The position numbers were made by a program, and so were the translations under genes. A stretch of DNA of 64,000 nucleotides, from positions 2,852,001 to 2,916,000 of the forward strand of contig NZ_FO082820.1 of assembly GCF_000967425.1 (NCBI RefSeq), written 5' to 3'. The notes under the pieces are model-generated. The model was not told the DNA's origin, ran no database searches, and worked only from the letters and a program-made list of their open reading frames with translations. The stretch comes from Pseudorhizobium banfieldiae (GTDB taxonomy: Bacteria; Pseudomonadota; Alphaproteobacteria; Rhizobiales; Rhizobiaceae). Shown here in pieces: positions 16,862 through 55,570 of the stretch (position 1 is the stretch's first letter; every line of letters starts with the position of its first letter).

Positions 16862-16887
16862 AACTCGACCTTTATCAGACCGGTTCC
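16862..16887 (-). promoter_or_regulatory. EcfG/RpoE2-type general stress promoter for the DUF892 gene
   Basis: On the minus strand GGAAC (16887-16883) is followed after 19 bases by TT (16863-16862), matching GGAAC-N18/19-TT. The element ends 34 bases before the ATG of the ferritin-like gene. A divergent match starts 10 bases away. Confidence 0.55.
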
Positions 16888-16897
16888 GACAAAAATG

Positions 16898-16922
16898 GGA
16901 ACTTAGGGCGGCATCTGCAGTT
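16898..16922 (+). promoter_or_regulatory. EcfG/RpoE2-type general stress promoter, rightward
   Basis: GGAAC (16898-16902), 18 bases, TT (16921-16922). It reads toward the proline-rich ORF at 17036 and the phospholipase D gene at 17272, and is back to back with the promoter of the DUF892 gene. Confidence 0.55.
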
Positions 16923-17023
16923 CATCGATCATAGCCATGAAGAACAAGGTCGCCTGATGCGGAACTTGAACCACGCATGCGCGATGATAGGCGCGGCGGC
17001 GATCAAGAACTAGATCAGGTACG

Positions 17024-17029
17024 AAGGAG
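17024..17029 (+). promoter_or_regulatory. Shine-Dalgarno AAGGAG in front of an ATC codon
   Basis: AAGGAG is followed by six bases and then ATC at 17036. There is no ATG, GTG, TTG or CTG in frame between the upstream TAG (16988) and this point, so the site is the main evidence for a non-canonical start. Confidence 0.5.
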
Positions 17030-17035
17030 ACGGAC

Positions 17036-17197
17036 ATCAACTCGCCAGATCCAAGAGAGCCCCACGAAACCCCGCCGGTTCCGGCACCGGATCTCAACCC
17101 TGTGCCACCGATCGACGAGCCTGAACCAGATCGGCTGCCGGACGAAGATCCAGTGCCCAATCCTGACGAGACAAGCGAACCGCCTGTCTACGCCTAG
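17036..17197 (+). CDS. Small proline-rich acidic protein with apparent ATC start
   Basis: The frame encodes 53 residues dominated by Pro, Asp and Glu (SPDPREPHE, PVPAPDLNPVPP, DEPEPDRLPDEDPVPNPDE) and ends YA-stop. This biased composition is unlike random shadow frames and resembles short proline-rich proteins of Rhizobiales. The only start at a proper distance from AAGGAG is ATC. An ACG abuts the Shine-Dalgarno sequence too closely. It is either a gene with a rare AUC start or a gene whose ATG was lost by mutation or by a base-call error. It lies downstream of an EcfG-type promoter and upstream of the phospholipase D gene. Confidence 0.5.
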   Translation: MNSPDPREPHETPPVPAPDLNPVPPIDEPEPDRLPDEDPVPNPDETSEPPVYA

Positions 17198-17271
17198 TAC
17201 ACTCGCTGACTCTCATGGAACTAGAGTAATCTGCGCGCGTTCATCTATGATCGCTATCAAGGGGTGCGTAG

Positions 17272-18774
17272 GTGGACGTGACAACAACCGCTTTTCCGGC
17301 AGACCAGGAATCCCGTAAAAATCCAATCATCAAGCCCGGACACAATGCATGGCGCAGTTCGCGCGCTGAGAAAGCTGCATTTCTGGTCGACGGAGCCGAT
17401 TACTTCCGTCGCCTGGACCAGGTTCTGGAGCATGCCCGGCGCTCTATCTTCATCATCGGCTGGGACTTTAATCCGGATATTCGACTGAGACCGGAAGATC
17501 CGGACTGCCCGACGCTCGGCGAGCGGCTTCGGAGTCAGGTCGAGAGCCGGCCGGACCTGGAGGTGCGGCTCATCGTCTGGGGCATGGGGCCAGTCTACTC
17601 CGGCAAGAGCCTGAAGATGTTCGGCAAGATGGATTGGAGCGACCACGAGCGGATCATCCTGAAATTCGACTTCGACCATCCGCTGCGCGCCAGCCATCAC
17701 CAGAAGATCGTCGCCATCGACGATAAAACCGCGTTTCTCGGCGGCATCGACCTCACCGCCCGCAGATGGGATGATCGCGAGCACCGATCTGATAACCCGC
17801 TCCGAAAATCTCCCGACGGCACGGCCTATGGCCCGGTTCATGATGTCCAGAGCATTGTCACGGGGCCTGCAGCCGTTCTGATAGGCGATGTTGCGCGGCG
17901 CCGGTGGCGCAAGTTGACGGGCGAGACGCTTCAGCCGCTACCCTCCCTGGAGGGCTCCAACCCCTGGCCTGACGATCTCGACGCCACCTTGAGAGATTGC
18001 TCTGCGGCACTGGCCCTGACCGAAGCATGGAAATGGAAGGGTCGGCGCGGCCACAGGGAGGCCATCCGCCTGACGCACGACGCGTTACGCGCTGCGGAGC
18101 GCCACCTGTATATCGAGACGCAATATCTGGCTTCCTTCGGTGTCGCCAGAACGATTGCGCGACGGCTGAAGGAGCCGCGCGGGCCTGAGATCGTGGTCGT
18201 CGTGACGCGCGAATCCCACGGTTTCGTCGAGCAGTTGATGATGGGCAAGAACCGCAACCGCCTGATCCGCAGGCTCATGCGGGCTGATCGGTATAACCGG
18301 CTGCGTGTCTACTATGCGGTAACCCCGGACGCACAGGGTAATGACCGTGAGATCGTGGTTCATTCGAAGGTAATTATCGTCGATGATCGGTTCATCCGCG
18401 TCGGCTCCTCGAACCTCAATAACCGGTCCGAGGGCTTGGACACGGAATGCGATATTGCCCTGGAGACATATAGCGCTGAAGGACGCCAGTCGATCGAGCG
18501 GGTGCGCGACGATCTCATTGCGGAGCACCTGGATGCGTCACCGGAGCAGGTATCCGCACAGGTCCGCAACACCGGCTCCCTCATCGCGGCGATTGAGTCA
18601 CTTAACACATCTCCACGCGGGCTGCGCCAATTTCACGTCGGGCCCAAGGAGGGCGACACGGAATCGGTGGTGGGCACGGGTATCATCGATCCCAAGCAGC
18701 CCTTCTGGCCGATTCGCCCCATGCTGGCATTCGTAAGGCGCAGCTTTTCCCGCCTAACCCGCCGGCTGCTTTGA
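17272..18774 (+). CDS. Phospholipase D family protein / cardiolipin synthase-like
   Basis: A 500-aa phosphatidyltransferase with two HKD motifs: HHQKIVAIDD near residue 143 and HSKVIIVDD near residue 364, each followed by a Gly/Ser-Asn or Gly-Asp segment (GGIDL, GSSNLNNRS). It would make cardiolipin or hydrolyse phospholipids at the inner membrane. N-terminal membrane helices typical of ClsA are absent, as in ClsB/PLD types. The start is GTG 17272, with AAGGGG about ten bases upstream. Its 3' end overlaps that of the convergent YbhN-like gene by 21 bases. E. coli keeps clsB next to ybhN and ybhP, and the three are together here too. Confidence 0.85.
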   Translation: MDVTTTAFPADQESRKNPIIKPGHNAWRSSRAEKAAFLVDGADYFRRLDQVLEHARRSIFIIGWDFNPDIRLRPEDPDCPTLGERLRSQVESRPDLEVRLIVWGMGPVYSGKSLKMFGKMDWSDHERIILKFDFDHPLRASHHQKIVAIDDKTAFLGGIDLTARRWDDREHRSDNPLRKSPDGTAYGPVHDVQSIVTGPAAVLIGDVARRRWRKLTGETLQPLPSLEGSNPWPDDLDATLRDCSAALALTEAWKWKGRRGHREAIRLTHDALRAAERHLYIETQYLASFGVARTIARRLKEPRGPEIVVVVTRESHGFVEQLMMGKNRNRLIRRLMRADRYNRLRVYYAVTPDAQGNDREIVVHSKVIIVDDRFIRVGSSNLNNRSEGLDTECDIALETYSAEGRQSIERVRDDLIAEHLDASPEQVSAQVRNTGSLIAAIESLNTSPRGLRQFHVGPKEGDTESVVGTGIIDPKQPFWPIRPMLAFVRRSFSRLTRRLL

Positions 18775-19698
18775 TATCCTCCCGCGCGGCTGGCGGCGAA
18801 AATAGGTTTCGCTCGCCACCAGCGTCGGCACCCCCACCATCAGCGGAACGAAGAAGTACAGGATCCGGAAGACAACCAGCGCGCCAATCGACGCATCGAT
18901 GGGAAGAACACCGAGAATGGTGGCTTCCAGCACGCCCAGGCCTCCCGGCACGTGGCTGATCAGGGCAGCGATGTTCGCAGTGACGTAGGCCGTGGCCACC
19001 GTCAGGTAGTTGACCGCAGAAATGCCCAGTAGGAGTTGATGAATGCATGCGGCGACGCAGGCAAAGTTGAGCGTGCCGACCGCGATTTGGCCAAGCGCAA
19101 GCCAGACGGAGGGTGGCTGGAAGCTCCACCGGTACAGGATAAGGGGTAGCCGCACGCGCCAGCAGATCAGCAGGTACAGCGTCGGCACCAGCAGACAGAT
19201 GCAGCCCAGAGCAACCGCCGTCATTTCGTTGATGCCGAGCAGGTCTCCGCCCCGCCCCTGTGTTATGATCAGCGCTAAACCGGCAAGGGTGACCAGGCCT
19301 AGACCAACGGTGACGCCGCAGAAGATGATGACCTTGGCAACCTGCTCGCCCGAAAGCCCCCAGCGCGAATAGAAGCGGTAGCGCACCGCACCGCTGCTCA
19401 GGGCAGCCATCCCAACGTTGTGGCCGATGGAAAGGCTGCAAAAGGACGCCAGCGCCACCTGCCGATAGAGCAAGGCGTGACCCGCATAGCGCACGGCGAG
19501 CCAGTCGAAACCAGAGAGACACGTATAGGAGCCGACGACGAATGCGAAGGCGAAGAGCAACCTCTGCTGCGGGATGGAAGCCACCGACAGCCTGATCTCC
19601 TCTAGACTATAGCGTCCGAGACTACGGTAGACGAGGAAGGCCGCGACCACGATCGCCAACGCAGCCAGAATTTTGAAAACGCGTCGCCTCGTAACCAT
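18754..19698 (-). CDS. YbhN/UPF0104 family integral membrane protein (lysylphosphatidylglycerol synthase TM region)
   Basis: A 314-aa membrane protein with about eight hydrophobic helices, of the family that includes E. coli YbhN and the flippase part of MprF. The first helix is KILAALAIVVAAFLVYRSLG. Conserved family features include IGHNVGMAALSSGAVRYRFYSRWGLS and SHVPGGLGVLEATILGVLP. It probably acts on membrane lipids, in line with its phospholipase D neighbour. The ATG at 19698 starts 28 bases from the TT of a minus-strand EcfG-type promoter. The 3' end overlaps the convergent phospholipase D gene. Confidence 0.85.
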   Translation of the reverse strand: MVTRRRVFKILAALAIVVAAFLVYRSLGRYSLEEIRLSVASIPQQRLLFAFAFVVGSYTCLSGFDWLAVRYAGHALLYRQVALASFCSLSIGHNVGMAALSSGAVRYRFYSRWGLSGEQVAKVIIFCGVTVGLGLVTLAGLALIITQGRGGDLLGINEMTAVALGCICLLVPTLYLLICWRVRLPLILYRWSFQPPSVWLALGQIAVGTLNFACVAACIHQLLLGISAVNYLTVATAYVTANIAALISHVPGGLGVLEATILGVLPIDASIGALVVFRILYFFVPLMVGVPTLVASETYFRRQPRGRISKQPAG

Positions 19699-19724
19699 CC
19701 GCTCCTCTCTCAGTTCGTGGACGG

Positions 19725-19749
19725 GGAACGAAAACCGGACAAACGGGTT
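19725..19749 (+). promoter_or_regulatory. EcfG-type promoter, rightward half of a bidirectional palindrome
   Basis: GGAAC (19725-19729), 18 bases, TT (19748-19749). The TT is part of GTTCC (19747-19751), which is the -35 element of the opposite promoter. The ATG of the YbhP-like gene lies nine bases after TT, which predicts an almost leaderless transcript. Confidence 0.6.
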
Positions 19750-19751
19750 CC
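19727..19751 (-). promoter_or_regulatory. EcfG-type promoter, leftward half of the same palindrome
   Basis: On the minus strand GGAAC (19751-19747) is followed after 18 bases by TT (19728-19727). It drives the YbhN-like gene, whose ATG at 19698 is 28 bases further on. The two promoters share all their key bases, so only one direction could be occupied at a time. Confidence 0.6.
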
Positions 19752-19758
19752 CCCGCTC

Positions 19759-20514
19759 ATGTCAGCCACTCCGCAGCAACCACCAGCCAAGCCCGGCACC
19801 ATCCTCAAGGTCCTCAGCTACAACGTCCACAGTTGCATCGGCACCGACCGCAAGCTCGATTGTGCGCGCATTGCCGAGGTGATCGCAACCATTGCTCCCG
19901 ATATCATCGGCCTGCAGGAACTGGATGTCGGCCGCCGACGGACCGGTGGCGCTGATCAGGCACATATCGTCGCGTCGCTCCTGCGCATGGAATTTCACTT
20001 CCATGCTGCACTTCACGTGGCGGAAGAACGCTATGGCGACGCTGTTTTGACCGCGTTGCCGATGCGTTTCGTAAAGGGAGCCATGCTTCCATCCTCCGGA
20101 GAGCAGCGCGGGGCCTTGTGGACGGAAGTGACTGCCGGAGATCGGACCGTGCAGGTCTTCAATACTCACCTGGGCTTGCGCCGCAGGGATCGCGTCAGCC
20201 AGATGACGACACTGCTTGGTCCCGGCTGGCTCGGCAATCCGGACAATGCGGACAAACCGCGCATCCTCATCGGCGACCTGAATTCCATCGGCAGGTCCGC
20301 CTCCTATCGCCTTGTTACGAAGCATCTGAAGGATGTCCAACTGGAAGCGCCGCGCCGGCCGCAGCCCACCTTCCCATCCCGCTATCCGATGATGCGCCTC
20401 GATCACATCTTCGTATCGGAGGGTATCGAAGTGCTCGACGCGGAAGTGATCTCCACCTCGCTGACACGCCGGGCATCGGACCACCTGCCGCTACTGGCGA
20501 CTATTCGCCTTTGA
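19759..20514 (+). CDS. Endonuclease/exonuclease/phosphatase family protein (YbhP-like)
   Basis: A 251-aa metal-dependent phosphodiesterase of the DNase I-like superfamily. The fold markers are present: LKVLSYNVHSCIG, the metal-binding Glu in IIGLQELDVGRR, NTHLGLRR, LIGDLNSIG, and the catalytic Asp-His in ASDHLPLLATI. YbhP in E. coli neighbours clsB and ybhN, which suggests a lipid-related phosphatase role rather than a nuclease; that is inference. The ATG at 19759 is preferred over GTG 19717 because the latter precedes the promoter element. Confidence 0.8.
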   Translation: MSATPQQPPAKPGTILKVLSYNVHSCIGTDRKLDCARIAEVIATIAPDIIGLQELDVGRRRTGGADQAHIVASLLRMEFHFHAALHVAEERYGDAVLTALPMRFVKGAMLPSSGEQRGALWTEVTAGDRTVQVFNTHLGLRRRDRVSQMTTLLGPGWLGNPDNADKPRILIGDLNSIGRSASYRLVTKHLKDVQLEAPRRPQPTFPSRYPMMRLDHIFVSEGIEVLDAEVISTSLTRRASDHLPLLATIRL

Positions 20515-20555
20515 ATGGCATACCTACCTTAATCGCCCCTGTTCTGCAGCAAGCT

Positions 20556-20825
20556 TCAGTGCTTGCCACGAGATACGAACTTGTTGAACCGGCTGGTCTT
20601 CCCGCTGGAGGTCTCTTCCTGATAGAGGAAGCACAGCTCGTTCTTGTCAAATATTTCGAAGAAGTCATCCCACTCGATCGGCTCCAGCGACTCTTCCGGC
20701 TCGCCGAAATCCACCCGTAGGATGCCTCCTTCGCCAGAGTCTTTGACCCGCGCCGGGTGACCGCCGCGTTCCTCGATCCAGTTGCGGATTTGCTTGTGGT
20801 CGGTGGTCTCTACCGATTTGCTCAT
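20556..20825 (-). CDS. Small acidic protein, conserved in rhizobia-type genomes, function unknown
   Basis: An 89-aa protein starting MSKSVETTDHKQIRNWIEERGG. It contains GILRVDFGEPEESLEPIEWDDFFEIFDKNELCFLYQ in outline: a short alpha/beta pattern ending in SRFNKFVSR. Proteins of this shape are frequent next to stress genes and are often left as hypothetical. The ATG at 20825 has AAGGAGG seven bases upstream, so the longer frame to 21080 is rejected. An EcfG-type promoter faces it at 20855-20879. Its end is 41 bases from the convergent YbhP-like gene. Confidence 0.8.
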   Translation of the reverse strand: MSKSVETTDHKQIRNWIEERGGHPARVKDSGEGGILRVDFGEPEESLEPIEWDDFFEIFDKNELCFLYQEETSSGKTSRFNKFVSRGKH

Positions 20826-20854
20826 CTTGACCTCCTTTGAACATCTCGCACCCG

Positions 20855-20879
20855 AACCTGAGCCGGATGCGATTGTTCC
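20855..20879 (-). promoter_or_regulatory. EcfG-type general stress promoter for the small acidic protein
   Basis: Minus-strand GGAAC (20879-20875), 18 bases, TT (20856-20855). The element ends 29 bases before the ATG at 20825. Confidence 0.55.
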
Positions 20880-20903
20880 GGACCGAAACCTGTCTCGACA
20901 GCG

Positions 20904-20929
20904 GGAACCTTTCTGCTGCGTCCGCGGTT
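20904..20929 (+). promoter_or_regulatory. EcfG-type promoter, rightward, upstream of the bd oxidase genes
   Basis: GGAAC (20904-20908), 19 bases, TT (20928-20929). It is divergent from the promoter at 20855-20879. The next gene in this direction is cydA/cioA, 193 bases away, leaving a long leader in which no other gene is seen. Confidence 0.4.
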
Positions 20930-21121
20930 GATCACCCGTCGAAAGCTCTAGAATGCGGACGACAGCGTCATAGTACCCTCCCCAACTCGGCGCCTCCTTC
21001 GGGAGTGCGCCGTCTTTCTTCCGACGGCTCTGCGTCGATCCGCCCGTATTGACCTCCCTGGCATTCAACCCATTTTTCAACCAGCGGACCCGTCGCTGCA
21101 GTTGTTAAGTGAGGATGGACG

Positions 21122-22537
21122 ATGCTCGAAAACCTCGACGCCACACTCCTGGCCAGGGTTCAGTTTGCCTTCACTGTTTCTTTCCACATCATCTTCCCCG
21201 CCTTCTCGATCGGCCTCGCAAGTTATCTGGCGGTGCTTCAGGGCCTGTGGTTGTGGACGAAGCAGGAGGTCTATCTCGAGCTTTTCGACTTCTGGAAGAC
21301 AATCTTCGCATTGGCCTTCGGGATGGGCGTGGTATCGGGCATCGTGATGTCCTACCAGTTCGGCACGAACTGGAGCGTATTCTCCGACAAGGCTGGGCCC
21401 ATCATCGGTCCGCTGATGGGATACGAGGTCCTTTCGGCCTTCTTCCTCGAAGCCGGTTTCCTCGGGGTCATGCTGTTCGGGAGGAATCGCGTCGGCCCCG
21501 GCCTGCATTTCTTCGCCACGCTCATGGTTGCCTTCGGCACGCTGATGTCGGCGACATGGATCCTCGCTGTGAATTCCTGGATGCAGACGCCGGTCGGCTT
21601 CGCCATGAACGACGCAGGACAGTTTGTGCCGGTGGACTGGTGGGCCATCATCTTCAACCCTTCATTCCCATACCGGCTGGTGCACATGGTGCTGGCCGCC
21701 TATCTGACCACTGCACTGGTTGTGGGTGCCGTGGGGGCCTACCACCTGTTGCGCCGCACATCGCCGCTTCGCGCGGGAACGATGTTCTCGATGGCCATGT
21801 GGATGCTGACGATCGTCGCACCCCTCCAGATCCTCGCAGGCGACATGCACGGCCTCAACACGCTCGAGCATCAGCCGGTCAAGGTCATGGCCATGGAGGG
21901 CCACTACGAAAGCCATCCCGATGGAGCCCCGCTGATCCTCTTTGGCCTCCCCAATCCTGAGGAGAAACGGGTCGATTACGCAGTGGAGATTCCCAAACTC
22001 TCCAGTCTCATCCTGAAGCACGATCTCAACGCGCCTCTGGATGGCCTCGACACAGTTCCCGAAGAACTGCATCCACCGGTTCCGATCGTCTTCTGGTCCT
22101 TCCGCATCATGATCGCCATTGGCTTTGCGATGTTCGGCCTCGGCTTGTGGAGCCTCTACTGTCGTTGGCGCGGCTCCCTCTATGGCAGCGAATGGCTGCA
22201 CCGGTCTGCGATCGTGATGGGACCTGCAGGATTTGTTGCAGTCCTGGCAGGATGGATCACCACCGAAGTCGGGCGACAGCCGTTCACCGTCTACGGGCAC
22301 CTGCTGACGGCCGATTCCGTTTCGCCGATTGCGGCACCGGCGGTTGCCACCTCGCTAATCGCTTTCATCATTGTCTATTTCCTGATCTTCGGCGCGGGCA
22401 CCTTCTATATTCTCCGGCTGATGTCCCGCCTGCCGCGCGACCCGATGGGCGACCTCGATGAGGGGCCGATCCGTACGGCGGGCATCACGCCTGCCCCTCA
22501 GGCAGCCAAACACGAGGAAGTGCGTCATGGAGCTTGA
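21122..22537 (+). CDS. cydA: Cytochrome bd-type ubiquinol oxidase subunit I (CioA-like)
   Basis: The quinol-oxidising, haem-binding subunit of a bd-type terminal oxidase in the inner membrane. The protein is 471 aa with nine or so membrane helices. A haem-ligand His is seen in FHIIFPAFSIG near residue 21, another in YRLVHMVLAAY near 187, and the Met ligand region in FWSFRIMIAIG. GRQPFTVYG is conserved. The Q loop is short, as in cyanide-insensitive CioA types rather than E. coli CydA. The ATG follows AAGTGAGGATGGACG. It overlaps cydB by 11 bases. Gene symbol cioA would be equally fair. Confidence 0.93.
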   Translation: MLENLDATLLARVQFAFTVSFHIIFPAFSIGLASYLAVLQGLWLWTKQEVYLELFDFWKTIFALAFGMGVVSGIVMSYQFGTNWSVFSDKAGPIIGPLMGYEVLSAFFLEAGFLGVMLFGRNRVGPGLHFFATLMVAFGTLMSATWILAVNSWMQTPVGFAMNDAGQFVPVDWWAIIFNPSFPYRLVHMVLAAYLTTALVVGAVGAYHLLRRTSPLRAGTMFSMAMWMLTIVAPLQILAGDMHGLNTLEHQPVKVMAMEGHYESHPDGAPLILFGLPNPEEKRVDYAVEIPKLSSLILKHDLNAPLDGLDTVPEELHPPVPIVFWSFRIMIAIGFAMFGLGLWSLYCRWRGSLYGSEWLHRSAIVMGPAGFVAVLAGWITTEVGRQPFTVYGHLLTADSVSPIAAPAVATSLIAFIIVYFLIFGAGTFYILRLMSRLPRDPMGDLDEGPIRTAGITPAPQAAKHEEVRHGA

Positions 22538-23531
22538 TCTCGCCTTCATTTGGGCCGCCATCATCGCCTTCGCGGTCCTCGCCTACGTCATCCTCGACGG
22601 CTTCGACCTCGGCGTCGGCATCCTCTTCCCGTTCTTTCCGGAGAAGCATGATAAGGACGTGATGATGAACAGCGTTGCACCCGTATGGGACGGCAACGAA
22701 ACATGGCTGGTCCTCGGCGGCGGCGGGCTGCTTGCCGTCTTCCCCCTTGCCTACGCTACCATCCTGCCGGCGCTCTATGCTCCAATCATTGCCATGCTGC
22801 TCGGGCTGATCTTCCGCGGCGTCGCCTTCGAATACCGCTGGCGCACCAAGCGGGCGGAGCCGCTCTGGAACTGGGCCTTCACGGGCGGGTCGGTCGTCGC
22901 AGCCTTTGCCCAAGGCGTGGCGCTGGGGGCACTGGTGCAGGGAATTCCGGTTGAGAACCGGGCGTATACGGGCGGCTGGTGGGACTGGCTCACGCCCTTC
23001 TCAATCGCCACGGGGCTAGCCGTCCTGATCGGTTATGCGCTGCTCGGGGCGACCTGGCTGATCATGAAGACGAGCGGAGAACTGGCGGAAAGGGCACGGC
23101 GCTATGCCTATATGGCCGGGGTCGCCACGCTGGTGGCCATGGGTATCGTCAGCCTCTGGACGCCCTTCCTCGAGCCGCTCTATCTCCAGCGCTGGTTCAG
23201 CTGGCCGACCGCAGCCTTCAGCCTGATCGTCCCCGCTCTGGTCGCCGCCTGCTTCCTGGTGCTGGCCCACGGCCTGCGCACCCGTCACGACAGCCGCCCC
23301 TTCATTGCGTCGCTTGGTCTCTTCGTGCTCGGCTATGCCGGGATCGGGATCAGCTTCTATCCCTATATTGTCCCCACCTCGGTGACGATCTGGGATGCTG
23401 CGGCTCCCGACGAGAGCCTCGCCTTCCTACTGGTCGGTGCGCTGGTCCTCGTGCCGCTGATCCTCGCCTACACCGCCTATGCCTACTGGGTGTTCCGGGG
23501 CAAGGTGAATCCCGAGGAAGGCTACCACTGA
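22527..23531 (+). CDS. cydB: Cytochrome bd-type ubiquinol oxidase subunit II (CioB-like)
   Basis: The second core subunit of the bd oxidase, 334 aa, with about eight membrane helices. Family hallmarks are IWAAIIAFAVLAYVILDGFD, LGVGILFPF, NSVAPVWDGNETWLVLGGGG and LIFRGVAFEYR. The start ATG at 22527 lies inside the end of cydA, with GAGGAAGTG about six bases upstream. A longer frame from 22458 reads within cydA and is rejected. The next small gene shares its TGATG stop/start, so all three subunits are likely made together. Confidence 0.93.
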   Translation: MELDLAFIWAAIIAFAVLAYVILDGFDLGVGILFPFFPEKHDKDVMMNSVAPVWDGNETWLVLGGGGLLAVFPLAYATILPALYAPIIAMLLGLIFRGVAFEYRWRTKRAEPLWNWAFTGGSVVAAFAQGVALGALVQGIPVENRAYTGGWWDWLTPFSIATGLAVLIGYALLGATWLIMKTSGELAERARRYAYMAGVATLVAMGIVSLWTPFLEPLYLQRWFSWPTAAFSLIVPALVAACFLVLAHGLRTRHDSRPFIASLGLFVLGYAGIGISFYPYIVPTSVTIWDAAAPDESLAFLLVGALVLVPLILAYTAYAYWVFRGKVNPEEGYH

Positions 23532-23644: not shown

Positions 23645-23774
23645 GTCCATCTCTCGACGCGGTGCGCGCCGACACCACCTGCCACCAAGCGGGATGCAGC
23701 GGCTGGACGCCACCGTCAAACAGGTTACAGTCGCCTGAGCTTGAGCGGACGCGGAATGCGGCGCATCGGCATGT

Positions 23775-23781: not shown

Positions 23782-23790
23782 CGACGGGAC

Positions 23791-25032: not shown

Positions 25033-25050
25033 CTTGGCGCTTGCAGGTTA

Positions 25051-27015: not shown

Positions 27016-27984
27016 TCATTTCAGCCGCGGAATGACCTGTGCACCGAAGACATCGATGAACTGCAACTGATTGCGTCCGACATTGTGGACGTAGACCTGC
27101 TCAAAACCCATGCCCATGTCTTCCTCGAACCAGGCAACGTGGCGAGAGGGATCGGCCGAGATGCGGACGAACTCGTCCATATCTTCGGGCCTGACCCGTG
27201 CGCAGGCAGCATCGAACTCCTCCGGCGTCCTGAGCGTCTCGGCGACTGCGGCGGGCAGCGTGTTGCTCCGCCACTGATCGTATGCGTTCTCGCGGGCTTC
27301 TGCGTCGGTCGGGGCATAGGAAACGTGAACCTGAAGATAGGCCGGCTTTCCTTCACCGCCGCCACGACGGAAAGCCTCGACAATCTGGGCCAGCTTGTCT
27401 CGCGGCTGGTTGATCGTGATCAGCCCGTCCGCCCATTTTCCCGCCCATTCGGCCGTGGCGATGGAAAGTGCGCCGGCAATCACCTTCGGAGCTTTACGCG
27501 GAAAGGTGTGGAGCCTTGCCTCATCCACCCGAATGGGGCTCTCGCGACTTACCGTGTTGCCGTCCCACAGCGACCGGATGATCTCGACCCCAGCCAGGAG
27601 CCGCTCATTCCTCTCGGGCTTGGACGGCCAGCGCTCCCCGACCACGTGCTCGCTGAGGGCCTGCCCGCTCCCGACCGCCATCCAGGGGAAGCGGCCAGGG
27701 AAGAGTTCTCCGAGGGTCGCCGCCGCCTGGGCGGTGATCACCGGATGATATCGCCAGCCCATCGGTACGGTAATCAGTCCGAAGGGGATCGTCTTCGTCG
27801 CCTGCATGGCGGCACCGAGGAAGGTCCAGACGAAGCCTGAGTGTCCCTGCCGCTCGCTCCAGGGCGCCAGGTGATCGGAAGACATGACGGCTCCGAAGCC
27901 GGCATTTTCCGCCGCTTGGACGCAAACGACGAGTTGGTTCGGGGAAAACTGCTCGTGGGAAGCGTGGTAACCGATGATCGTCAT
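27016..27984 (-). CDS. LLM class flavin-dependent oxidoreductase (TIGR03885-like)
   Basis: A 322-aa luciferase-like TIM-barrel oxidoreductase using FMN or F420. It starts MTIIGYHASHEQFSPNQL and contains GFGAVMSSDHLAPWSERQGHSG, VPMGWRYHPVITAQAAATL, and MAVGSGQALSEHVVGE. This pattern fits the TIGR03885 group, whose substrates are unknown. The ATG at 27984 lies nine bases beyond the TT of an EcfG-type promoter, which predicts a leaderless or near-leaderless mRNA. A longer frame to 28071 overlaps the DUF763 gene and is rejected. Confidence 0.8.
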   Translation of the reverse strand: MTIIGYHASHEQFSPNQLVVCVQAAENAGFGAVMSSDHLAPWSERQGHSGFVWTFLGAAMQATKTIPFGLITVPMGWRYHPVITAQAAATLGELFPGRFPWMAVGSGQALSEHVVGERWPSKPERNERLLAGVEIIRSLWDGNTVSRESPIRVDEARLHTFPRKAPKVIAGALSIATAEWAGKWADGLITINQPRDKLAQIVEAFRRGGGEGKPAYLQVHVSYAPTDAEARENAYDQWRSNTLPAAVAETLRTPEEFDAACARVRPEDMDEFVRISADPSRHVAWFEEDMGMGFEQVYVHNVGRNQLQFIDVFGAQVIPRLK

Positions 27985-27993: not shown

Positions 27994-28018
27994 AAGGCTG
28001 AAACGCTCGCTTGGTTCC
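27994..28018 (-). promoter_or_regulatory. EcfG-type general stress promoter for the LLM oxidoreductase
   Basis: Minus-strand GGAAC (28018-28014), 18 bases, TT (27995-27994). The ATG at 27984 follows after nine bases, the same distance as for the YbhP-like gene. The element partly precedes the end of the DUF763 gene at 28029. Confidence 0.5.
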
Positions 28019-35378: not shown

Positions 35379-35403
35379 GGAACTTTTGCTGCGCACCAAG
35401 GTT
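35379..35403 (+). promoter_or_regulatory. EcfG-type general stress promoter for the second DUF892 gene
   Basis: GGAAC (35379-35383), 18 bases, TT (35402-35403). The ATG at 35440 is 36 bases downstream. The same arrangement precedes the other DUF892 gene. Confidence 0.6.
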
Positions 35404-35439: not shown

Positions 35440-35955
35440 ATGGCTGACACCAGCGCGACCCGTGAGATCTTCGTGACCGGCCTGAAAAACGCTCACGCTA
35501 TGGAAAACCAGGCTCTGTCGATCATGAAGCCGCAGGTTTCGAGAATTGAGAACTACCCGGAAGTCGCCCGCCGCCTTGAGGAGCATATCCGCGAGACGGA
35601 AGGGCAGATGACGCGTCTCGAAGAACTGCTTCAGCAACTGGATGAAAGCCACTCCTCGATGAAGGACATGGCGCTTTCCTTCACCGGCTCGATGGCGGCA
35701 ATGGGCCACACGATCGCGGGCGACGAGATCGTCAAGAACTCCTTCGCCAACTTCGCCTTCGAGAACTACGAGATTGCTGCCTACAAGTCTCTTTTGACTG
35801 TAGCAGAACTCGGCGGCTTCCCGTCAGCGACCTCCGCCCTCCAGGCGAACCTGCAGGAGGAGCAGAACATGGCGAAATGGATCGACGACAACCTGCGCAC
35901 CGTGACAACGCGCTTCGTGGAACTTCGCGAGGCCGGCGAAAGTGCCAAGGTCTAG
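35440..35955 (+). CDS. Ferritin-like DUF892 (YciE/YciF) family protein, copy 2
   Basis: A 171-aa four-helix-bundle protein related to the one at 16321. Shared features include KNAHAMENQALSIMKPQ against DAHAMEEQALTMLTAQ, HIRETEGQMTRLEELL, FAFENYEIAAYKSLL and EEQNMAKWIDDNL. The family responds to osmotic and oxidative stress in other bacteria. The ATG at 35440 has GGAGAATGAC upstream; the frame upstream to 35158 is open by chance. It carries an EcfG-type promoter and is followed by a strong intrinsic terminator. Confidence 0.87.
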   Translation: MADTSATREIFVTGLKNAHAMENQALSIMKPQVSRIENYPEVARRLEEHIRETEGQMTRLEELLQQLDESHSSMKDMALSFTGSMAAMGHTIAGDEIVKNSFANFAFENYEIAAYKSLLTVAELGGFPSATSALQANLQEEQNMAKWIDDNLRTVTTRFVELREAGESAKV

Positions 35956-43607: not shown

Positions 43608-44033
43608 TCAGCGGCGTCTTGGCTCTGCCAACTCCGCCGCCTCCACATCGAAATGATCGAGGATAATGCCGATATTGCGCTTGTGGGCCTTGAAGTAGAC
43701 ATCGAATACGTCGCCTAGCAGCGGCACGCTTCCGACAGCCGCATCGACAGCAATATTGGTCAGCATTCGCGCCAGCTTGTCTGATGGGACTCCAAGCTTT
43801 CGGCCTTCGTTGACGATCGCCAGTCCGATGATCGCGCCGCTCGCATCGCCGATCACCGGAAGCAATCCCAGAAGTGAATCAGCCCCGAAGCGGATGCCGG
43901 TTCCGGGTACGCGGACGGCTGTATCGAGAAGCCGGGCGAGATTATTCAGCCGACGCAGTCGCCGAAGCAACTGGATCCGCTCCTCGTGAGACCGGCTGCC
44001 GGTACCCCATCCTTCATCGTTCCCAGACATCAT
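43608..44033 (-). CDS. DUF4112 domain-containing membrane protein
   Basis: A 141-aa protein with the DUF4112 pattern: RLNNLARLLDTAVRVPGTGI, then RFGADSLLGLLPVIGDASGA, IIGLAIVNEGRKLGVPSD, and VGSVPLLGDVFDVYFKAHKR. Two hydrophobic helices are likely. The function is unknown. The start may be either of two adjacent ATGs (44033 or 44030). An EcfG-type promoter faces it, back to back with one for the next small gene. Confidence 0.85.
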   Translation of the reverse strand: MMSGNDEGWGTGSRSHEERIQLLRRLRRLNNLARLLDTAVRVPGTGIRFGADSLLGLLPVIGDASGAIIGLAIVNEGRKLGVPSDKLARMLTNIAVDAAVGSVPLLGDVFDVYFKAHKRNIGIILDHFDVEAAELAEPRRR

Positions 44034-44072: not shown

Positions 44073-44098
44073 AATGAGGAAACTGGCTGCGGGGTTCC
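44073..44098 (-). promoter_or_regulatory. EcfG-type general stress promoter for DUF4112
   Basis: Minus-strand GGAAC (44098-44094), 19 bases, TT (44074-44073), ending 39 bases before the ATG. It forms a divergent pair with 44108-44132, with nine bases between them. Confidence 0.55.
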
Positions 44099-44107: not shown

Positions 44108-44132
44108 GGAACCACAGCCATGGCGATGAGTT
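44108..44132 (+). promoter_or_regulatory. EcfG-type general stress promoter for a small hydrophilic protein
   Basis: GGAAC (44108-44112), 18 bases, TT (44131-44132). The ATG at 44159 lies 26 bases downstream with GGAGGAG between. Confidence 0.6.
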
Positions 44133-44158: not shown

Positions 44159-44347
44159 ATGGGCATCGAACAGGCACCAACCGAAGAGGGCAAGGAATCC
44201 GCCCGTGGTTTGAAAGACAGCAGCAAGGCAGAAGAACGGCACGTTGAAGCCGAGAAAGGCAGCGATCTGGCCAAGGGCGCTGACCGCTTCGAAGAACGTG
44301 CGCGCAGCTCCGACGGCCGAAGCGCGGGTGACAAGCAACACGACTGA
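44159..44347 (+). CDS. Small highly charged protein (hydrophilin-like)
   Basis: A 62-aa protein of almost only Glu, Lys, Asp, Ala, Ser and Gly (KESARGLKDSSKAEERHVEA), without hydrophobic core, predicted to be disordered or a single amphipathic helix. Such LEA- or hydrophilin-like proteins protect cells under water stress; that role is inferred from composition and the EcfG-type promoter. The ATG at 44159 follows GGAGGAG; a start at 44120 would overlap the promoter. A terminator-like stem follows. Confidence 0.7.
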   Translation: MGIEQAPTEEGKESARGLKDSSKAEERHVEAEKGSDLAKGADRFEERARSSDGRSAGDKQHD

Positions 44348-47953: not shown

Positions 47954-47963
47954 GGGAGCGGAC

Positions 47964-49034: not shown

Positions 49035-49036
49035 GC

Positions 49037-49903: not shown

Positions 49904-49913
49904 GAGGTTTGCG

Positions 49914-50729
49914 ATGAGCTCGAACATCAAGCCGCGCTGGTCCTGGATCGTCCCGACCGTCTATATCATCTTCCTCATCCTGCCGATCTACTGGCTCGTC
50001 AACATGAGCTTCAAGACGAATGCCGAGATCCTCGGCCCCTTCTCCCTTTGGCCACAGTATCCGACACTCCGGAACTATTCGGTGATCTTTACCGACCCCT
50101 CCTGGTACAACGGCTACATCAATTCGATCATCTATGTGGTCCTGAACACGATCATCTCGGTCACCGTCGCCCTTCCCGCGGCCTATGCCTTCTCGCGATA
50201 CCGGTTCCTTGGCGACAAGCACCTGTTCTTCTGGCTCCTGACGAACCGGATGGCCCCGCCGGCGGTCTTCGCGCTGCCGTTCTTTCAGCTCTATTCCGCG
50301 TTCGGCCTGATCGACACCCATATCGCCGTCGCAATCGCCCACTGCCTGTTCAACGTGCCGCTGGCGGTCTGGATCCTCGAAGGCTTCATGTCGGGCGTCC
50401 CCAAGGAGATCGACGAGACCGCCTATATCGACGGTTACTCCTTCCCCCGCTTCTTCGTGAAAATCTTCATGCCGCTCATCGCCAGCGGCATCGGTGTCGC
50501 CGCATTCTTCTGCTTCATGTTCTCGTGGGTCGAACTGCTGATCGCCCGGACGCTGACGACGACGGACGCGAAGCCTATCGCGGCGACGATGACCCGCACT
50601 GTTTCGGCCTCAGGGCTTGATTGGGGCGTTCTCGCCGCTGCCGGCGTGCTCACGATCATTCCCGGTGCCTTGGTCATCTATTTCGTTCGCAACTACATCG
50701 CCAAGGGCTTCGCCCTGGGGAGAGTTTGA
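49914..50729 (+). CDS. glpQ: Glycerol ABC transporter permease GlpQ
   Basis: A 271-aa permease of the MalG class with six helices, starting WIVPTVYIIFLILPIYWLVN. The EAA loop is IDETAYIDGYSFPRFFVKIF. Six bases before the ATG is AGGAGG. It shares its TGATG end with the next small gene. The symbol follows rhizobial glycerol operons and is unrelated to the E. coli phosphodiesterase GlpQ. Confidence 0.92.
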   Translation: MSSNIKPRWSWIVPTVYIIFLILPIYWLVNMSFKTNAEILGPFSLWPQYPTLRNYSVIFTDPSWYNGYINSIIYVVLNTIISVTVALPAAYAFSRYRFLGDKHLFFWLLTNRMAPPAVFALPFFQLYSAFGLIDTHIAVAIAHCLFNVPLAVWILEGFMSGVPKEIDETAYIDGYSFPRFFVKIFMPLIASGIGVAAFFCFMFSWVELLIARTLTTTDAKPIAATMTRTVSASGLDWGVLAAAGVLTIIPGALVIYFVRNYIAKGFALGRV

Positions 50730-51151
50730 TGTCGAAAGCTCACGATCACTCAAGCCGCCGCTGGCCCGTCGCACTCGCTGCCGTTCTGGTCGTCTATGGG
50801 GTTGTCGCCGTGTCGCTGGCCATGTCGCTTCCGGTGAAGGACGGCGCGCGCGACTGGACGGCGCCGCTCATACCGGGCGGCTGGATGGCCTGGTCTTTCC
50901 CGACGGCGATGTTCTTCCTCACGATCTTCGCGTTGCTCGCCTGCATGGCGGTCTGGGAATATGCGCGACCTGGAGGACATCCACGAATTGGCATCCTGCG
51001 TTTCGAGACGACCCGGGGCGACCGGCTGTTCATCTCGCTGCTCGGCTCTGCCTTTATTCACCTCGCGTGGCTGGGTCTGTCCGACCTCAGCCTCTGGTGG
51101 GCTCTTGCCGTCAGCATTCTCTACGCGATGGTCGTGTTCAGAACCGTCTGA
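50729..51151 (+). CDS. glpU: DUF2160 small membrane protein GlpU of the glycerol importer
   Basis: A 140-aa protein with about four membrane helices (VALAAVLVVYGVVAVSLAM, WSFPTAMFFLTIFALLACMA, FISLLGSAFIHLAWLGL, WWALAVSILYAMVVF). DUF2160 proteins accompany this ABC system; their task is not known, perhaps assembling or gating the permease. The start codon shares the TGA of glpQ. The reading frame upstream to 50621 lies within glpQ. Confidence 0.85.
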   Translation: MSKAHDHSSRRWPVALAAVLVVYGVVAVSLAMSLPVKDGARDWTAPLIPGGWMAWSFPTAMFFLTIFALLACMAVWEYARPGGHPRIGILRFETTRGDRLFISLLGSAFIHLAWLGLSDLSLWWALAVSILYAMVVFRTV

Positions 51152-51220
51152 CGCAAGCAATACGGAGGCGGTCGCCTGCCTCCGCATGAGTAAGTGCAAT
51201 CGCAACCTTGGGAGGATGAT

Positions 51221-52939
51221 ATGCGAAGGCATCTGATGACAACAACGGCAGCGGTGCTGCTGGCAATGGCAGGGTCTGCATTTGCAGGCATGGAGGAAGC
51301 CAAACAGTTCCTGGACGCGGAAATCGGCGACATGTCTTCGCTTTCCCGCGAAGATCAGGAAAAGGAGATGCAGTGGTTCATCGACGCGGCCCAGCCGTTC
51401 GCGGGAATGGACATCAAGGTCGTCTCCGAAACCATCACGACCCACGAGTATGAATCGAAGGTCCTGGCTCCTGCGTTCACGGCGATTACCGGCATCAAGA
51501 TCACCCATGACCTGATTGGCGAAGGCGATGTTGTCGAAAAGCTGCAGACACAGATGCAGTCCGGCGAGAACGTCTACGACGCCTATGTCAACGACTCCGA
51601 TCTGATCGGCACCCACTGGCGCTATCAGCAGGCACGCTCCTTGACTGACTGGATGGCAAACGAGGGCAAGGATGTCACCAATCCCATGCTGGATCTGGAG
51701 GACTTCATCGGCCTGAAATTCACCACGGCGCCGGATGGCGACCTCTACCAACTGCCCGACCAGCAGTTCGCCAACCTCTACTGGTTCCGCTACGACTGGT
51801 TCAACGACGAGAAGAACAAGGCGGACTTCAAGGAGAAGTACGGCTACGATCTCGGCGTGCCGGTCAACTGGTCGGCTTATGAGGACATCGCCGAATTCTT
51901 CACCGGACGCGAGATCGACGGGAAGAAGGTCTATGGCCACATGGACTACGGCAAGAAGGACCCGTCGCTTGGCTGGCGCTTCACCGATGCCTGGCTGTCC
52001 ATGGCCGGCAACGGTGACAAGGGTCTGCCGAACGGTCTTCCGGTCGACGAGTGGGGCATCAAGGTCGACGAGAACTCGCGTCCGGTCGGCTCCTGCGTCG
52101 CGCGTGGCGGCGATACCAATGGGCCGGCGGCGGTCTACTCCATCCAGAAGTATCTCGACTGGATGAAGGCCTATGCACCGGCTGCCGCACAGGGCATGAC
52201 CTTCTCCGAATCCGGGCCGGTACCCGCTCAGGGTGAAATCGCCCAGCAGATGTTCATGTACACGGCATTTACCGCCGACATGGTCAAGGACGGGCTGCCG
52301 GTGGTCAACGAGGACGGCACGCCGAAGTGGCGGTTCGCGCCTTCGCCGCATGGCGTCTACTGGAAGGAAGGCATGAAGCTCGGCTATCAGGACGTCGGTT
52401 CCTGGACGCTGCTGAAGTCGACGCCGGACGATCGGGCGAAGGCGGCCTGGCTTTATGCTCAGTTCGTCACGTCCAAGACGGTCGATGTGAAGAAAAGCCA
52501 TGTCGGGCTGACGCTCATTCGCGAAAGCACCATCCAGCATGAGAGCTTCACCGAGCGTGCGCCCAAGCTCGGCGGCCTGATCGAGTTCTACCGTTCGCCG
52601 GCCCGCGTGCAGTGGTCGCCGACCGGGACGAACGTTCCGGATTACCCGAAGCTCGCCCAGCTCTGGTGGCAGGCGATCGGAGATGCCTCGTCCGGCGCAA
52701 AAACTCCTCAGGAAGCCATGGACTCGCTTTGCGCCGAGCAGGAGAAGGTCATGGAGCGTCTTGAGCGTGCAGGCGTTCAGGGCGACATCGGCCCGAAGCT
52801 CGCTGAAGAGCACGATCTCGAATATTGGAACGCCGAAGCGGTGAAGGCCGGCAATCTCGCTCCTCAGTTGAAGATCGAGAACGAGAAGGAAAAGCCGATC
52901 ACCGTCAACTACGATGAGCTGGTCAAGAGCTGGCAGTAA
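51221..52939 (+). CDS. glpV: Glycerol ABC transporter substrate-binding protein GlpV
   Basis: A 572-aa periplasmic binding protein with a signal peptide (HLMTTTAAVLLAMAGSAFAG). It is longer than usual for sugar binders (about 420 aa). The mature part starts MEEAKQFLDAEIGD and contains YEDIAEFFTGREIDGKKVYG and WGIKVDENSRPVGSCVARGG. The position after the permeases supports the glycerol role. GGGAGGATGAT fixes the ATG at 51221. A 13-bp stem-loop follows. No glpK is found next to it. Confidence 0.92.
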   Translation: MRRHLMTTTAAVLLAMAGSAFAGMEEAKQFLDAEIGDMSSLSREDQEKEMQWFIDAAQPFAGMDIKVVSETITTHEYESKVLAPAFTAITGIKITHDLIGEGDVVEKLQTQMQSGENVYDAYVNDSDLIGTHWRYQQARSLTDWMANEGKDVTNPMLDLEDFIGLKFTTAPDGDLYQLPDQQFANLYWFRYDWFNDEKNKADFKEKYGYDLGVPVNWSAYEDIAEFFTGREIDGKKVYGHMDYGKKDPSLGWRFTDAWLSMAGNGDKGLPNGLPVDEWGIKVDENSRPVGSCVARGGDTNGPAAVYSIQKYLDWMKAYAPAAAQGMTFSESGPVPAQGEIAQQMFMYTAFTADMVKDGLPVVNEDGTPKWRFAPSPHGVYWKEGMKLGYQDVGSWTLLKSTPDDRAKAAWLYAQFVTSKTVDVKKSHVGLTLIRESTIQHESFTERAPKLGGLIEFYRSPARVQWSPTGTNVPDYPKLAQLWWQAIGDASSGAKTPQEAMDSLCAEQEKVMERLERAGVQGDIGPKLAEEHDLEYWNAEAVKAGNLAPQLKIENEKEKPITVNYDELVKSWQ

Positions 52940-52946
52940 CGCGTAA

Positions 52947-52978
52947 GCTCGGGGGCCGGGCCAATCCGGCCCCCGAGC
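52947..52978. terminator. Stem-loop ending the glycerol operon
   Basis: GCTCGGGGGCCGG (52947-52959) pairs perfectly with CCGGCCCCCGAGC (52966-52978) around GCCAAT. No T-run follows, so it may stabilise the 3' end or work with Rho. It separates two convergent genes. Confidence 0.65.
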
Positions 52979-52995
52979 AGCCTCGACGACCGTCG

Positions 52996-53817
52996 CTACC
53001 AGAGCGGTACGTGACGGTTTACGTCCTTGTAGAGAAGATAGCGGAAGCGGCCAGGTCCACCCGCATAGCAGGCCTGTGGACAGAAGGCTCGCAGCCACAT
53101 GAAGTCACCAGCCTCGACCTCCACCCAGTCCGCGTTGAGCCGGTACACGGCCTTCCCCTCGAGAACATAGAGCCCATGCTCCATCACATGGGTCTCCATG
53201 AAGGGGATCGTGCCGCCAGGTTCGAACGTGACAATATTAACGTGCATGTCGTAGCGGACGTCGGCAGGATCGATAAATCTGGTTGTCGCCCATTTACCCT
53301 CGGTATCTGGCATGGCGACCATCTGCTGCTCGCCCTCATGCGTGAATATGGCGGGCGGGGGTGCAAGACCGTCCACCGCCTGAAACACCTTACGGATCCA
53401 ATGGAACCGGACTGCCGATCCGGAATGGTTCCGCACGCTCCAGGAACTGCCTGCCGGCAGATAGGCAAATGAGCCGGTCCGAAGCTGGTGGGCCCCGCCA
53501 TCCAGTTCGACAATCATCTCGCCTTCAGTGACAAAGAGTGCCGCCTGAGCCCGGCTGTCCGGCTCCGGACGCAGGCTACCGCCTCCGGCTTCGACCTCCA
53601 TAACATACTGGGCAAAGGTCTCTGCAAAACCGGTCATTGGCCGGGCGATGATCCAGGCGCGGGTGTTATCCCAATGGGGCAGGATGCTGGTGACGATGTC
53701 GGTCATGACCGACCGCGGGATGACGGCGTATGCGGTCGTGAAGATGGCCTTGCTGGAGAGGAGTTCGGTCTGCCCGGGAAGACCGCCGAGCCGTGAATGG
53801 TAGGTGCTGTCGTTCAT
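52996..53817 (-). CDS. allE: (S)-ureidoglycine aminohydrolase
   Basis: A 273-aa bicupin enzyme that releases ammonia from ureidoglycine in allantoin (purine) degradation. The N-terminal motif LLSSKAIFTTAYAVIPRSVM and the first cupin (ALFVTEGEMIVELDG) are followed by the metal site in FMETHVMEHGLYVLEGKAVY, with His, His, Gln/Glu positions, and FMWLRAFCPQACYAGG near the end. No other allantoin gene is in the window. The ATG at 53817 is chosen; a longer frame to 53874 has no support. Symbol after E. coli allE (ylbA). Confidence 0.88.
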   Translation of the reverse strand: MNDSTYHSRLGGLPGQTELLSSKAIFTTAYAVIPRSVMTDIVTSILPHWDNTRAWIIARPMTGFAETFAQYVMEVEAGGGSLRPEPDSRAQAALFVTEGEMIVELDGGAHQLRTGSFAYLPAGSSWSVRNHSGSAVRFHWIRKVFQAVDGLAPPPAIFTHEGEQQMVAMPDTEGKWATTRFIDPADVRYDMHVNIVTFEPGGTIPFMETHVMEHGLYVLEGKAVYRLNADWVEVEAGDFMWLRAFCPQACYAGGPGRFRYLLYKDVNRHVPLW

Positions 53818-53900
53818 TGCCGATCCGTTTCGCGCTGACATCGGCAACCTGCTTAAGCGGCGGACCGAAATCATGCAATCCCACCGCAGGATGCCGTTCG

Positions 53901-55466
53901 CTAACCGGTCGCCAGCACCTGACGTCGGTCGGAAAGATAGGTCACAACATCTTCCGCCGGCATGGGCCTGCCGAGCAGGTAGCCTTGCCCGAGATCACAA
54001 CCCTGACTTACGAAATGAGCCAGTTGGCGGTGGTCCTCAATACCTTCCACGGTCGTCTTGGCATGAAGGCTGCGGCTGAGGCCCAGCATCGCCTGGATAA
54101 CCTTCTCCTGCCGCTCGTCGGTGCCGCAGGCGGCGACGAAGCTCTTGTCGATCTTGATCTTGTCAAATCGGAAGCGCGCCAGTTGCGAGAAATTGGAGTA
54201 GCCGGTGCCGAAATCGTCCAGAGCAATCTGAACGCCCCTGCTGCTCAGGCTGTCCATGATGTGAGCGGCGAGATCCGGGTCAGAGACCAGAGCATTTTCC
54301 GTGATCTCCAGTTCCAGCCGTTCGGGCGGAAAGCCGACTTCGTCCAGGATGCCGATGACACGGGTCGGCAGCATGCGGTCTTCCATCTGCACCGGCGACA
54401 GATTGAAGGAAAGCCCCATATCCTCAGGCCATGACCTTGCCGCCTCGCAGGCCTCGCGCAGCAGCTGCTGGAACAGAGGCGTGATGAGGCCTGACTCTTC
54501 GGCCAAGGGGATGAAGACGTTCGGGGGTACGAATTCTCCATCTTCGTTCTTCCACCGTGCCAGCGCTTCAAAGCCGCATACGTCGCCGCTGCGCAGGTCC
54601 ACGAGCGGCTGATAGAAGGCCCCGATCGACCCCTTGTCGATTGCCCGGCGTAATTCACCTTCAAGCTTGGCACGCCGGCTGACCTTGGCCTGCATCTCTG
54701 GCTCGAAGAGAACGTGATTGTTGGGACCCCGCCCCTTTGCCTCGTACAGCGCGATATCGGCAACATGGGAGACCTCCGCCAGCGTGGCGCCATGTTCCGG
54801 CAGGCGGGCATAGCCGATGCTGGCGCCCACCTCCGCAGTAAGGCTGCCGATCCGAACCGGTCTCGTGATGGACTGGATCAACAGCTCCGCAAAGCGTTTC
54901 TCCTTGGCTTCCGAGAAGTGGCGACCAATGGCGATGAACTCGTCTCCGCCGAAACGAAAGACGCAATCCTGCTCCGCCAATGCGCAGATGCGACGCGCCA
55001 CTTCCTTCAGCAGGACATCCCCGCCCTGATGCCCCATCAGGTCGTTGACCTTCTTGAAGCCATCCAGGTCTATGGCGTAGACGGTCGCGAACGGAGCGTC
55101 GGTGGCGGGCTCCGAAGCGTCATCCAAACGCATGTTCGGTGCCAGTTCGCAACGATCGAAGGCGTAGCGATTGGGCAGCTTGGTGAGATGATCGCGGGTG
55201 GCGATGTAGTCGGCCCGACGTTCTGCATCACGTCTGCGAAGCATCTCGTCCTTCATGTCGAGGATGCGAAGCAGCGAGTAGACGATGCTGACCCCCCCTG
55301 CGACGTTCGCCATGACCAGGGCAATTGCAACGCCCTTCCCATTGGCCGTGCCGAGATAGTCGACGATCTCGCGCATGAAAACCATCGCGAGGCCCCACAG
55401 CACGATGGCGGCAAGGCAAGTATAAAGGAACTGCGTACCCGCGCGGCTGTTGAGAAACTCACTCAT
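53901..55466 (-). CDS. Bifunctional diguanylate cyclase/phosphodiesterase (GGDEF-EAL)
   Basis: A 521-aa c-di-GMP enzyme. Two membrane helices lie near residues 13-33 (YTCLAAIVLWGLAMVFMREI) and 42-62, with no large sensor domain. The GGDEF domain has RFGGDEFIAIG intact. The EAL domain has GFEALARW, SFNLSPVQ, ELEITENAL, ALDDFGTGYSN, KIDKSFV and VEGIED, so all usual catalytic positions are present. Either or both activities may work. Targets are unknown; the polysaccharide locus in this window is a possible one. Confidence 0.92.
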   Translation of the reverse strand: MSEFLNSRAGTQFLYTCLAAIVLWGLAMVFMREIVDYLGTANGKGVAIALVMANVAGGVSIVYSLLRILDMKDEMLRRRDAERRADYIATRDHLTKLPNRYAFDRCELAPNMRLDDASEPATDAPFATVYAIDLDGFKKVNDLMGHQGGDVLLKEVARRICALAEQDCVFRFGGDEFIAIGRHFSEAKEKRFAELLIQSITRPVRIGSLTAEVGASIGYARLPEHGATLAEVSHVADIALYEAKGRGPNNHVLFEPEMQAKVSRRAKLEGELRRAIDKGSIGAFYQPLVDLRSGDVCGFEALARWKNEDGEFVPPNVFIPLAEESGLITPLFQQLLREACEAARSWPEDMGLSFNLSPVQMEDRMLPTRVIGILDEVGFPPERLELEITENALVSDPDLAAHIMDSLSSRGVQIALDDFGTGYSNFSQLARFRFDKIKIDKSFVAACGTDERQEKVIQAMLGLSRSLHAKTTVEGIEDHRQLAHFVSQGCDLGQGYLLGRPMPAEDVVTYLSDRRQVLATG

Positions 55467-55545
55467 ACTAGAACTCCACCCGCGTCAGAGGGTATCAGCA
55501 ATTGCTGAACGAGAAGTTCACGAATGAGGTGTGGCGATCAGGGCC

Positions 55546-55570
55546 GGAACCGATGGCAGGTTTCTGGGTT
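55546..55570 (+). promoter_or_regulatory. EcfG-type general stress promoter for the FMN-binding stress protein
   Basis: GGAAC (55546-55550), 18 bases, TT (55569-55570). The ATG at 55599 is 28 bases downstream with AAGGAG in between. Confidence 0.6.

Follow-up and report, generated by a model that had tools for sequence, protein, structure and literature searches.

How two divergent genes could be served by a single promoter is the question raised by a short gap in the genome of Pseudorhizobium banfieldiae. The gap lies in a stretch of 64,000 nucleotides (nt), here called the window, which covers positions 2852001-2916000 of contig 1 in a 4.58-Mb genome of three contigs (4239731, 322264, and 15430 bases). 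A gene for a YbhN-like membrane protein of the LPG_synthase_TM type (18754-19698, minus strand; PF03706 at 28.1 bits, below the cut-off of 33.4) and a gene for a YbhP-like endonuclease/exonuclease/phosphatase-family protein (19759-20514, plus strand; PF03372) are separated there by 60 nt, and a perfect inverted repeat at 19725-19751, GGAAC-N17-GTTCC, fills this gap. Both arms have two roles, as the -35 box of an EcfG-type promoter on one strand and as the carrier of the -10 motif GTT on the opposite strand, with 19725-19749(+) reading towards the YbhP-like gene and 19727-19751(-) towards the YbhN-like gene. An earlier note on this DNA, which proposed that eleven matches to GGAAC-N18/19-TT mark a general stress regulon of the sigma factor EcfG (RpoE2), counted these as two sites; they are one palindrome read two ways. 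The comparisons described below suggest that 19725-19751 is probably a symmetric bidirectional EcfG promoter and that the sites in the window are probably EcfG (RpoE2)-dependent general-stress promoters.

The palindrome between the ybhN-like and ybhP-like genes

The sequence GGAAC...GTT, extended by CC, is its own reverse complement, and therefore EcfG-RNA polymerase could dock on it in either orientation. One orientation would give leaderless transcription of the ybhP-like gene from or next to its ATG, and the opposite orientation would give a ybhN-like transcript whose leader is about 20 nt long. Because the two footprints coincide, the polymerase should be unable to dock both ways at once, and a single stress-controlled entry point would be common to both genes. 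We infer the bidirectional transcription, the mutual exclusion, the leaderless start, and the dependence on EcfG from the sequence of the locus and its relatives.

The palindrome is conserved in most of the relatives examined. It lies between the two gene starts in all 55 chromosome-type loci from other genomes (29 fetched with the YbhP-like protein, L046-L074, and 26 with the YbhN-like protein, L075-L100, the two species sets overlapping in part). Across 40 distinct contexts, including the own copy, GGAACGAA and GTTCCC were invariant, and the flanks and core were variable. The arms were spaced by N17 in 23 contexts and by N18 in 17, which is the one-base spacer tolerance of EcfG. This variation bears on the quite unlikely alternative that the palindrome is the operator of a dimeric transcription factor between divergent genes and resembles an EcfG box incidentally. 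Such repeats between divergent genes are typical of operators, and conservation over the 40 contexts is very strong, but the occurrence of both spacings would rotate the half-sites of a dimer relative to each other. Furthermore, the arms and their spacing match the EcfG boxes that flank neighboring genes without a palindrome, and a scan of 19600-19860, made for the sigma-70 type only, found no sigma-70-like site and no other promoter-like element in the 60-nt gap.

The key control for symmetry is the outer CC after GTT, for which a one-way promoter has no need. Orthologues in other Rhizobiaceae were searched for a site within 260 nt upstream, with the own genome and identical upstream sequences dropped; 0.05 to 0.25 sites per gene would be expected by chance. 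EcfG sites were kept upstream of the orthologues of nine genes, far above this expectation, including 39/39 for the YbhN-like gene (minus reading of the palindrome) and 38/38 for the YbhP-like gene (plus reading). The outer CC was present in 39/39 and 38/38 of these readings, compared to 3/100 at seven other orthologous EcfG promoters (1/21, 1/30, 0/12, 0/7, 1/14, 0/8, and 0/8), the 77 readings at the palindrome not being independent cases because they are two readings of about 40 palindromes.

The palindrome is also found on plasmids. Of 322 plasmid records with a match, 16 loci were fetched, and 14 had it (in Sinorhizobium, including S. meliloti, Rhizobium, and Shinella). In the NGR234 plasmid locus, it stands beside ybhP and about 1 kb from ybhN. 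There was no palindrome in the Martelella plasmid locus, where MprF is found and ybhP is not. In S. meliloti ml28 (L201:2168-2941), where the PLSDB gene table (incomplete) does not list the ybhP-like gene and the alignment to it starts only at residue 111, the palindrome is nevertheless intact.

It is unlikely that the EcfG promoter works in one direction only and that the other arm is kept otherwise, for example by a leaderless start of the YbhP-like message. The nearby start codon could in part constrain the right side of the palindrome. In Rhizobium CB3090, the arm on the YbhN side is broken, though ybhN aligns full length, and the single reading that is retained faces a decayed ybhP (ybhP and the neighboring phospholipase D [PLD]-family gene align only in part). 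This case and the dependence among the CC readings count against a bidirectional promoter. On the other hand, the left GG is needed only for the YbhP side and the right CC only for the YbhN side, both are invariant, and the palindrome is also retained in plasmid loci in which the ATG is not 8 to 9 nt away.

The position of the ybhP-like start codon is itself regular. The own ATG is 9 nt past GTT, and among 52 distinct contexts the first in-frame ATG follows GTT by 8 or 9 nt in 41, all 11 others being plasmid loci. The search pattern that was derived from the RpoE2 promoter of Rhizobium NT-26 is TT-N8-G (PMC6011840). Given this pattern and the ATG spacing, transcription would be expected to begin at or next to the ybhP-like ATG, and the message is predicted to be leaderless. 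In S. meliloti, 171 leaderless mRNAs have been mapped (PMC3616915).

The EcfG system and the placement of its sites

A complete EcfG system is encoded by neighboring genes on contig 1, 73 kb upstream of the window: an HWE kinase (2776412-2777437, minus strand), PhyR (2777704-2778405, minus strand), NepR (2778714, plus strand), and EcfG (2778842-2779405, plus strand). By analogy with what is known for the family, phosphorylated PhyR would draw NepR off EcfG, and the promoters would then fire. This part is unexceptional: the regulon is genome-wide, and RpoE2 promoters have been published for Rhizobium NT-26, which, or a twin of which, is probably the strain studied here. For NT-26, a reporter assay showed that RpoE2 drives a promoter of the form GGAAC-N16/17-cgTT; the authors also listed 469 genes in silico but considered this list too generic (PMC6011840). 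The highest-ranking named match to the YbhN-like protein comes from Pseudorhizobium endolithicum (71%), and the relatives are Rhizobiaceae. Contig 2 contains a 6-kb segment that matches a plasmid of the arsenite oxidizer NT-25 with 100% identity.

The gap between phyR and nepR-ecfG (contig 1, 2778405-2778714) has back-to-back EcfG-like sites, and the site towards nepR mostly ends in ATT. When any base was allowed before TT, EcfG-like sites were present on both strands of this gap in 29 of 30 loci. A palindrome was present in 0 of the 30, and the gap was thus rejected as a general palindrome. In relative G028, which is outside those 30, phyR is preceded by a palindromic promoter, and another EcfG-like site faces nepR. 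A second gene for an EcfG-like sigma factor (contig 1, 2815860-2816366, minus strand) adjoins a gene for Ku and one that is LigD-like by our reading of the sequence. EcfG sites lie on both strands between the sigma-factor gene and the Ku and LigD-like genes, and the region (2815860-2819939) is possibly a stress-controlled end-joining locus.

In order to evaluate the sites in the window, a loose pattern (GGAAC-N18/19-TT) and a strict pattern (GGAAC-N17/18-GTT) were scanned. The loose pattern matched 21 times in the window, compared to a mean of 10.2 in 100 shuffles (standard deviation, 3.6; largest, 20). Twelve of these matches are outside genes and directed at a gene on the same strand; called genes make up 92% of the window. 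These twelve are the eleven matches listed in the earlier note, every coordinate and strand of which was confirmed, and a twelfth that was overlooked, 17217-17241(+). Of the remaining matches, eight lie in coding sequence, and one, 39597(-), overlaps a plus-strand gene at its 3' end. The -10 motif of the 12 promoter-type sites is GTT in 10, ATT at 44073, and CTT at 27994.

Gene context, not raw genome counts, reveals the signal of the motif. The raw count over the whole genome (258 versus 232 for the reversed motif) is barely above the control because most raw matches are chance hits. In 356 kb around the window, the strict motif had 47 matches, 36 of them non-coding and 26 at most 350 nt upstream of a start on the same strand. 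Among 90 composition-matched permutations of the boxes, the real motif included, the median of this promoter-placed count was 1 and the runner-up (CGGAA-GTT) reached 11. Twenty control stretches of 20 kb (400 kb) held 31 matches to the strict motif, of which 24 were non-coding and 19 promoter placed. The 26 promoter-placed sites, together with the matches in the control stretches, indicate that the motif is real and that the regulon is spread over the genome. A regulon clustered in the window was ruled out by the 19 promoter-placed control sites.

These results support the assignment of the window sites as EcfG (RpoE2)-type general-stress promoters. It is very improbable that they are chance matches to a loose consensus. 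The raw genome counts and the lack of conservation of the 27994 site would fit chance, but promoter placement so far above that of the permuted motifs, and conservation in nine orthologue sets, would not; the support from orthologues does not extend to 16898, 27994, and 44108. The proposal of an EcfG stress regulon is upheld by its cognate system, by orthologue conservation, and by the promoter of this type that RpoE2 drives in NT-26, the probable strain. The set is not peculiar to this window, since the control stretches also hold many sites.

Genes downstream of the sites

The overlooked site at 17217-17241(+) is upstream of the gene for the PLD-family protein (17272-18774, plus strand; PF13091 and PF00614) and is kept in 28/30 orthologues. 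This gene is convergent with the ybhN-like gene and overlaps its 3' end. The three products are related to those of the E. coli ybhP-clsB-ybhN locus, named the clsB operon in PMC9241728: the YbhN-like protein to YbhN (32%, E value of 5e-29), the YbhP-like protein to YbhP (28%, 2e-21), and the PLD protein to the PLD-family product (24%, 9e-8). The PLD protein is ClsB-like by neighborhood only; its identification as ClsB was rejected, as it scored 37.2 bits against the cut-off of 281 of the NCBIfam equivalog NF008427. Thus, the two loci have three adjacent genes of the same three families in common, but the E. coli genes run in one direction, whereas here the divergent pair shares the palindrome, the PLD gene has its own EcfG site, and the PLD protein is far under the ClsB cut-off. 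These genes may have a role in membrane lipids under stress.

Two genes for DUF892 ferritin-like proteins have EcfG sites. The first (16321-16827, minus strand; PF05974) is preceded by 16862-16887(-), kept in 21/29 orthologues, and the second (35440-35955) by 35379-35403(+), kept in 14/16. The former site is back to back with 16898-16922(+), which is upstream of a conserved small proline-rich open reading frame (ORF) (17036-17197, plus strand; about 53 amino acids) that recurs in relatives. Its start codon is ATG in 16 of the 17 relatives displayed and apparently TTG in the other (L075); the own copy has ATC at this position, with a good ribosome-binding site ahead. Beyond the ybhP-like gene, 20855-20879(-) is upstream of a gene for an 89-amino-acid protein without a Pfam or NCBIfam match (20556-20825, minus strand; 12/12 orthologues), and 20904-20929(+) is 193 nt upstream of cydA (21122-22537), which is followed by cydB (22527-23531), the two encoding cytochrome bd oxidase (7/11 orthologues within 260 nt).

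The doubtful member of the set is the weak candidate with a -10 of CTT at 27994-28018(-), upstream of a luciferase-like gene (27016-27984). Sites within 260 nt were seen for only three of eight homologues of that gene, the closest of them 110 nt away and the others at 218 and 235 nt. The luciferase-like gene was therefore rejected as an EcfG target, and the 27994 site is probably not an EcfG promoter. The site 44073-44098(-), with a -10 of ATT, is upstream of a DUF4112 gene (43608-44033), orthologues of which have a site in 8/22 cases with GTT only and in 17/24 with ATT and CTT allowed (duplicates not dropped). It is back to back with 44108-44132(+), upstream of a gene for a small hydrophilic protein (44159-44347) that, by our reading, begins at 44159 and not at the 44120 ORF; the orthologue search behind the site counts found no orthologue of this protein. 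Finally, 55546-55570(+) is upstream of a gene for a pyridoxamine-oxidase-like flavin mononucleotide (FMN) protein (55599-56078; 8/8 orthologues).

Palindromic EcfG sites as a possible class

Nine palindromes of this form occur in the own genome; divergent gaps hold five of them, tandem gaps two, and coding sequence the other two. Relatives G028 and G030 together have 33; the placement of 32 of these (33 rows, L225 and L257 being one site) was 11 coding, 11 divergent, 8 tandem, and 2 unresolved, the one left out being the divergent ybhN/ybhP site of G028. A 756-kb portion of the own genome holds four GGAAC palindromes, none of them in coding sequence and three in divergent gaps, compared to 77 coding, 6 tandem, 3 convergent, and 0 divergent among the 86 palindromes formed by 29 permuted half-sites (AAGGC alone accounting for five of the nine non-coding ones). 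The six other non-coding palindromes of the own genome were checked against the palindromes of G028 and G030. Three of them have a counterpart next to orthologous genes, namely 811909, which lies by a PLD-family gene and recurs in the two relatives, and 2546613 and 4038076, which recur in G028. Near 2519600 (L103:1283-1473), two near-identical hydrophobic ORFs of 24 residues stand in tandem beside a palindromic EcfG site.

Not all of the genome-wide evidence agrees with two-direction sites. Palindromes are not in excess in the raw count (9 versus 15 for the reversed pattern), by which genome-wide over-representation was rejected; only placement and conservation stand out. No counterparts of the palindromes at 2519635, 2748686, and 2949145 were seen in the G028 and G030 sets, and a palindrome in a tandem gap would fire antisense too. 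On balance, we still lean towards the view that Rhizobiaceae keep several EcfG sites, symmetrized by two bases, as stress switches that act in two directions from one site, the -35 and -10 roles being exchanged between the arms. These would be the ybhN/ybhP site (across the family, with one product leaderless), 811909, 2546613, 4038076, and the phyR promoter of G028.

EcfG sites in divergent gaps tend towards pairs. The 756 kb include 92 divergent gaps of 40 nt or more; sites were present on both strands in 10 of them, on a single strand in 8, and on neither in 74 (Fisher P = 1.2e-7); without the three palindromic gaps, the counts were 7, 8, and 74 (P = 1.3e-5). Tandem gaps had a site in the gene direction in 17 of 246 cases. 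Divergent neighbors of known EcfG targets may therefore also be targets.

The sites resemble the EcfG/RpoE2 regulons of S. meliloti, R. etli, S. melonis, and Rhizobium NT-26 in the GGAAC-N16/17-cGTT motif, the PhyR-NepR-EcfG locus, and the stress-type targets, but differ in that one promoter is a perfect palindrome readable both ways, which is undescribed in the available parts of PMC6011840, PMC3892343, and PMC6599016. Searches of open-access PMC papers returned either no paper or, among the titles and abstract openings listed (20 of 84 and 10 of 11 hits), none that could be recognized as describing a symmetric EcfG or ECF (extracytoplasmic function) promoter, and we found no account of such an architecture for any sigma factor. 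The bidirectional promoters of E. coli described by Warman et al. (PMC12825309) are symmetric in sequence, so that RNA polymerase can bind them in either of two orientations but not in both at once. The palindrome likewise is a symmetric element between divergent genes, but in the E. coli promoters the symmetry is within a shared -10; in the palindrome, the -10 of either direction is part of the -35 arm that serves the opposite one, and the sigma factor involved would be of the ECF type. With arms 17 to 18 nt apart that swap -35 and -10 roles, it would work like the E. coli promoters without being one of them.

If the ybhN/ybhP palindrome fires both ways, it would be a natural and strongly conserved case in which a 5-bp arm read by sigma region 4 holds, in the other orientation, the target of region 2. 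The choice of orientation by an ECF holoenzyme would then be directly testable, and the site would be a compact stress switch for two genes.

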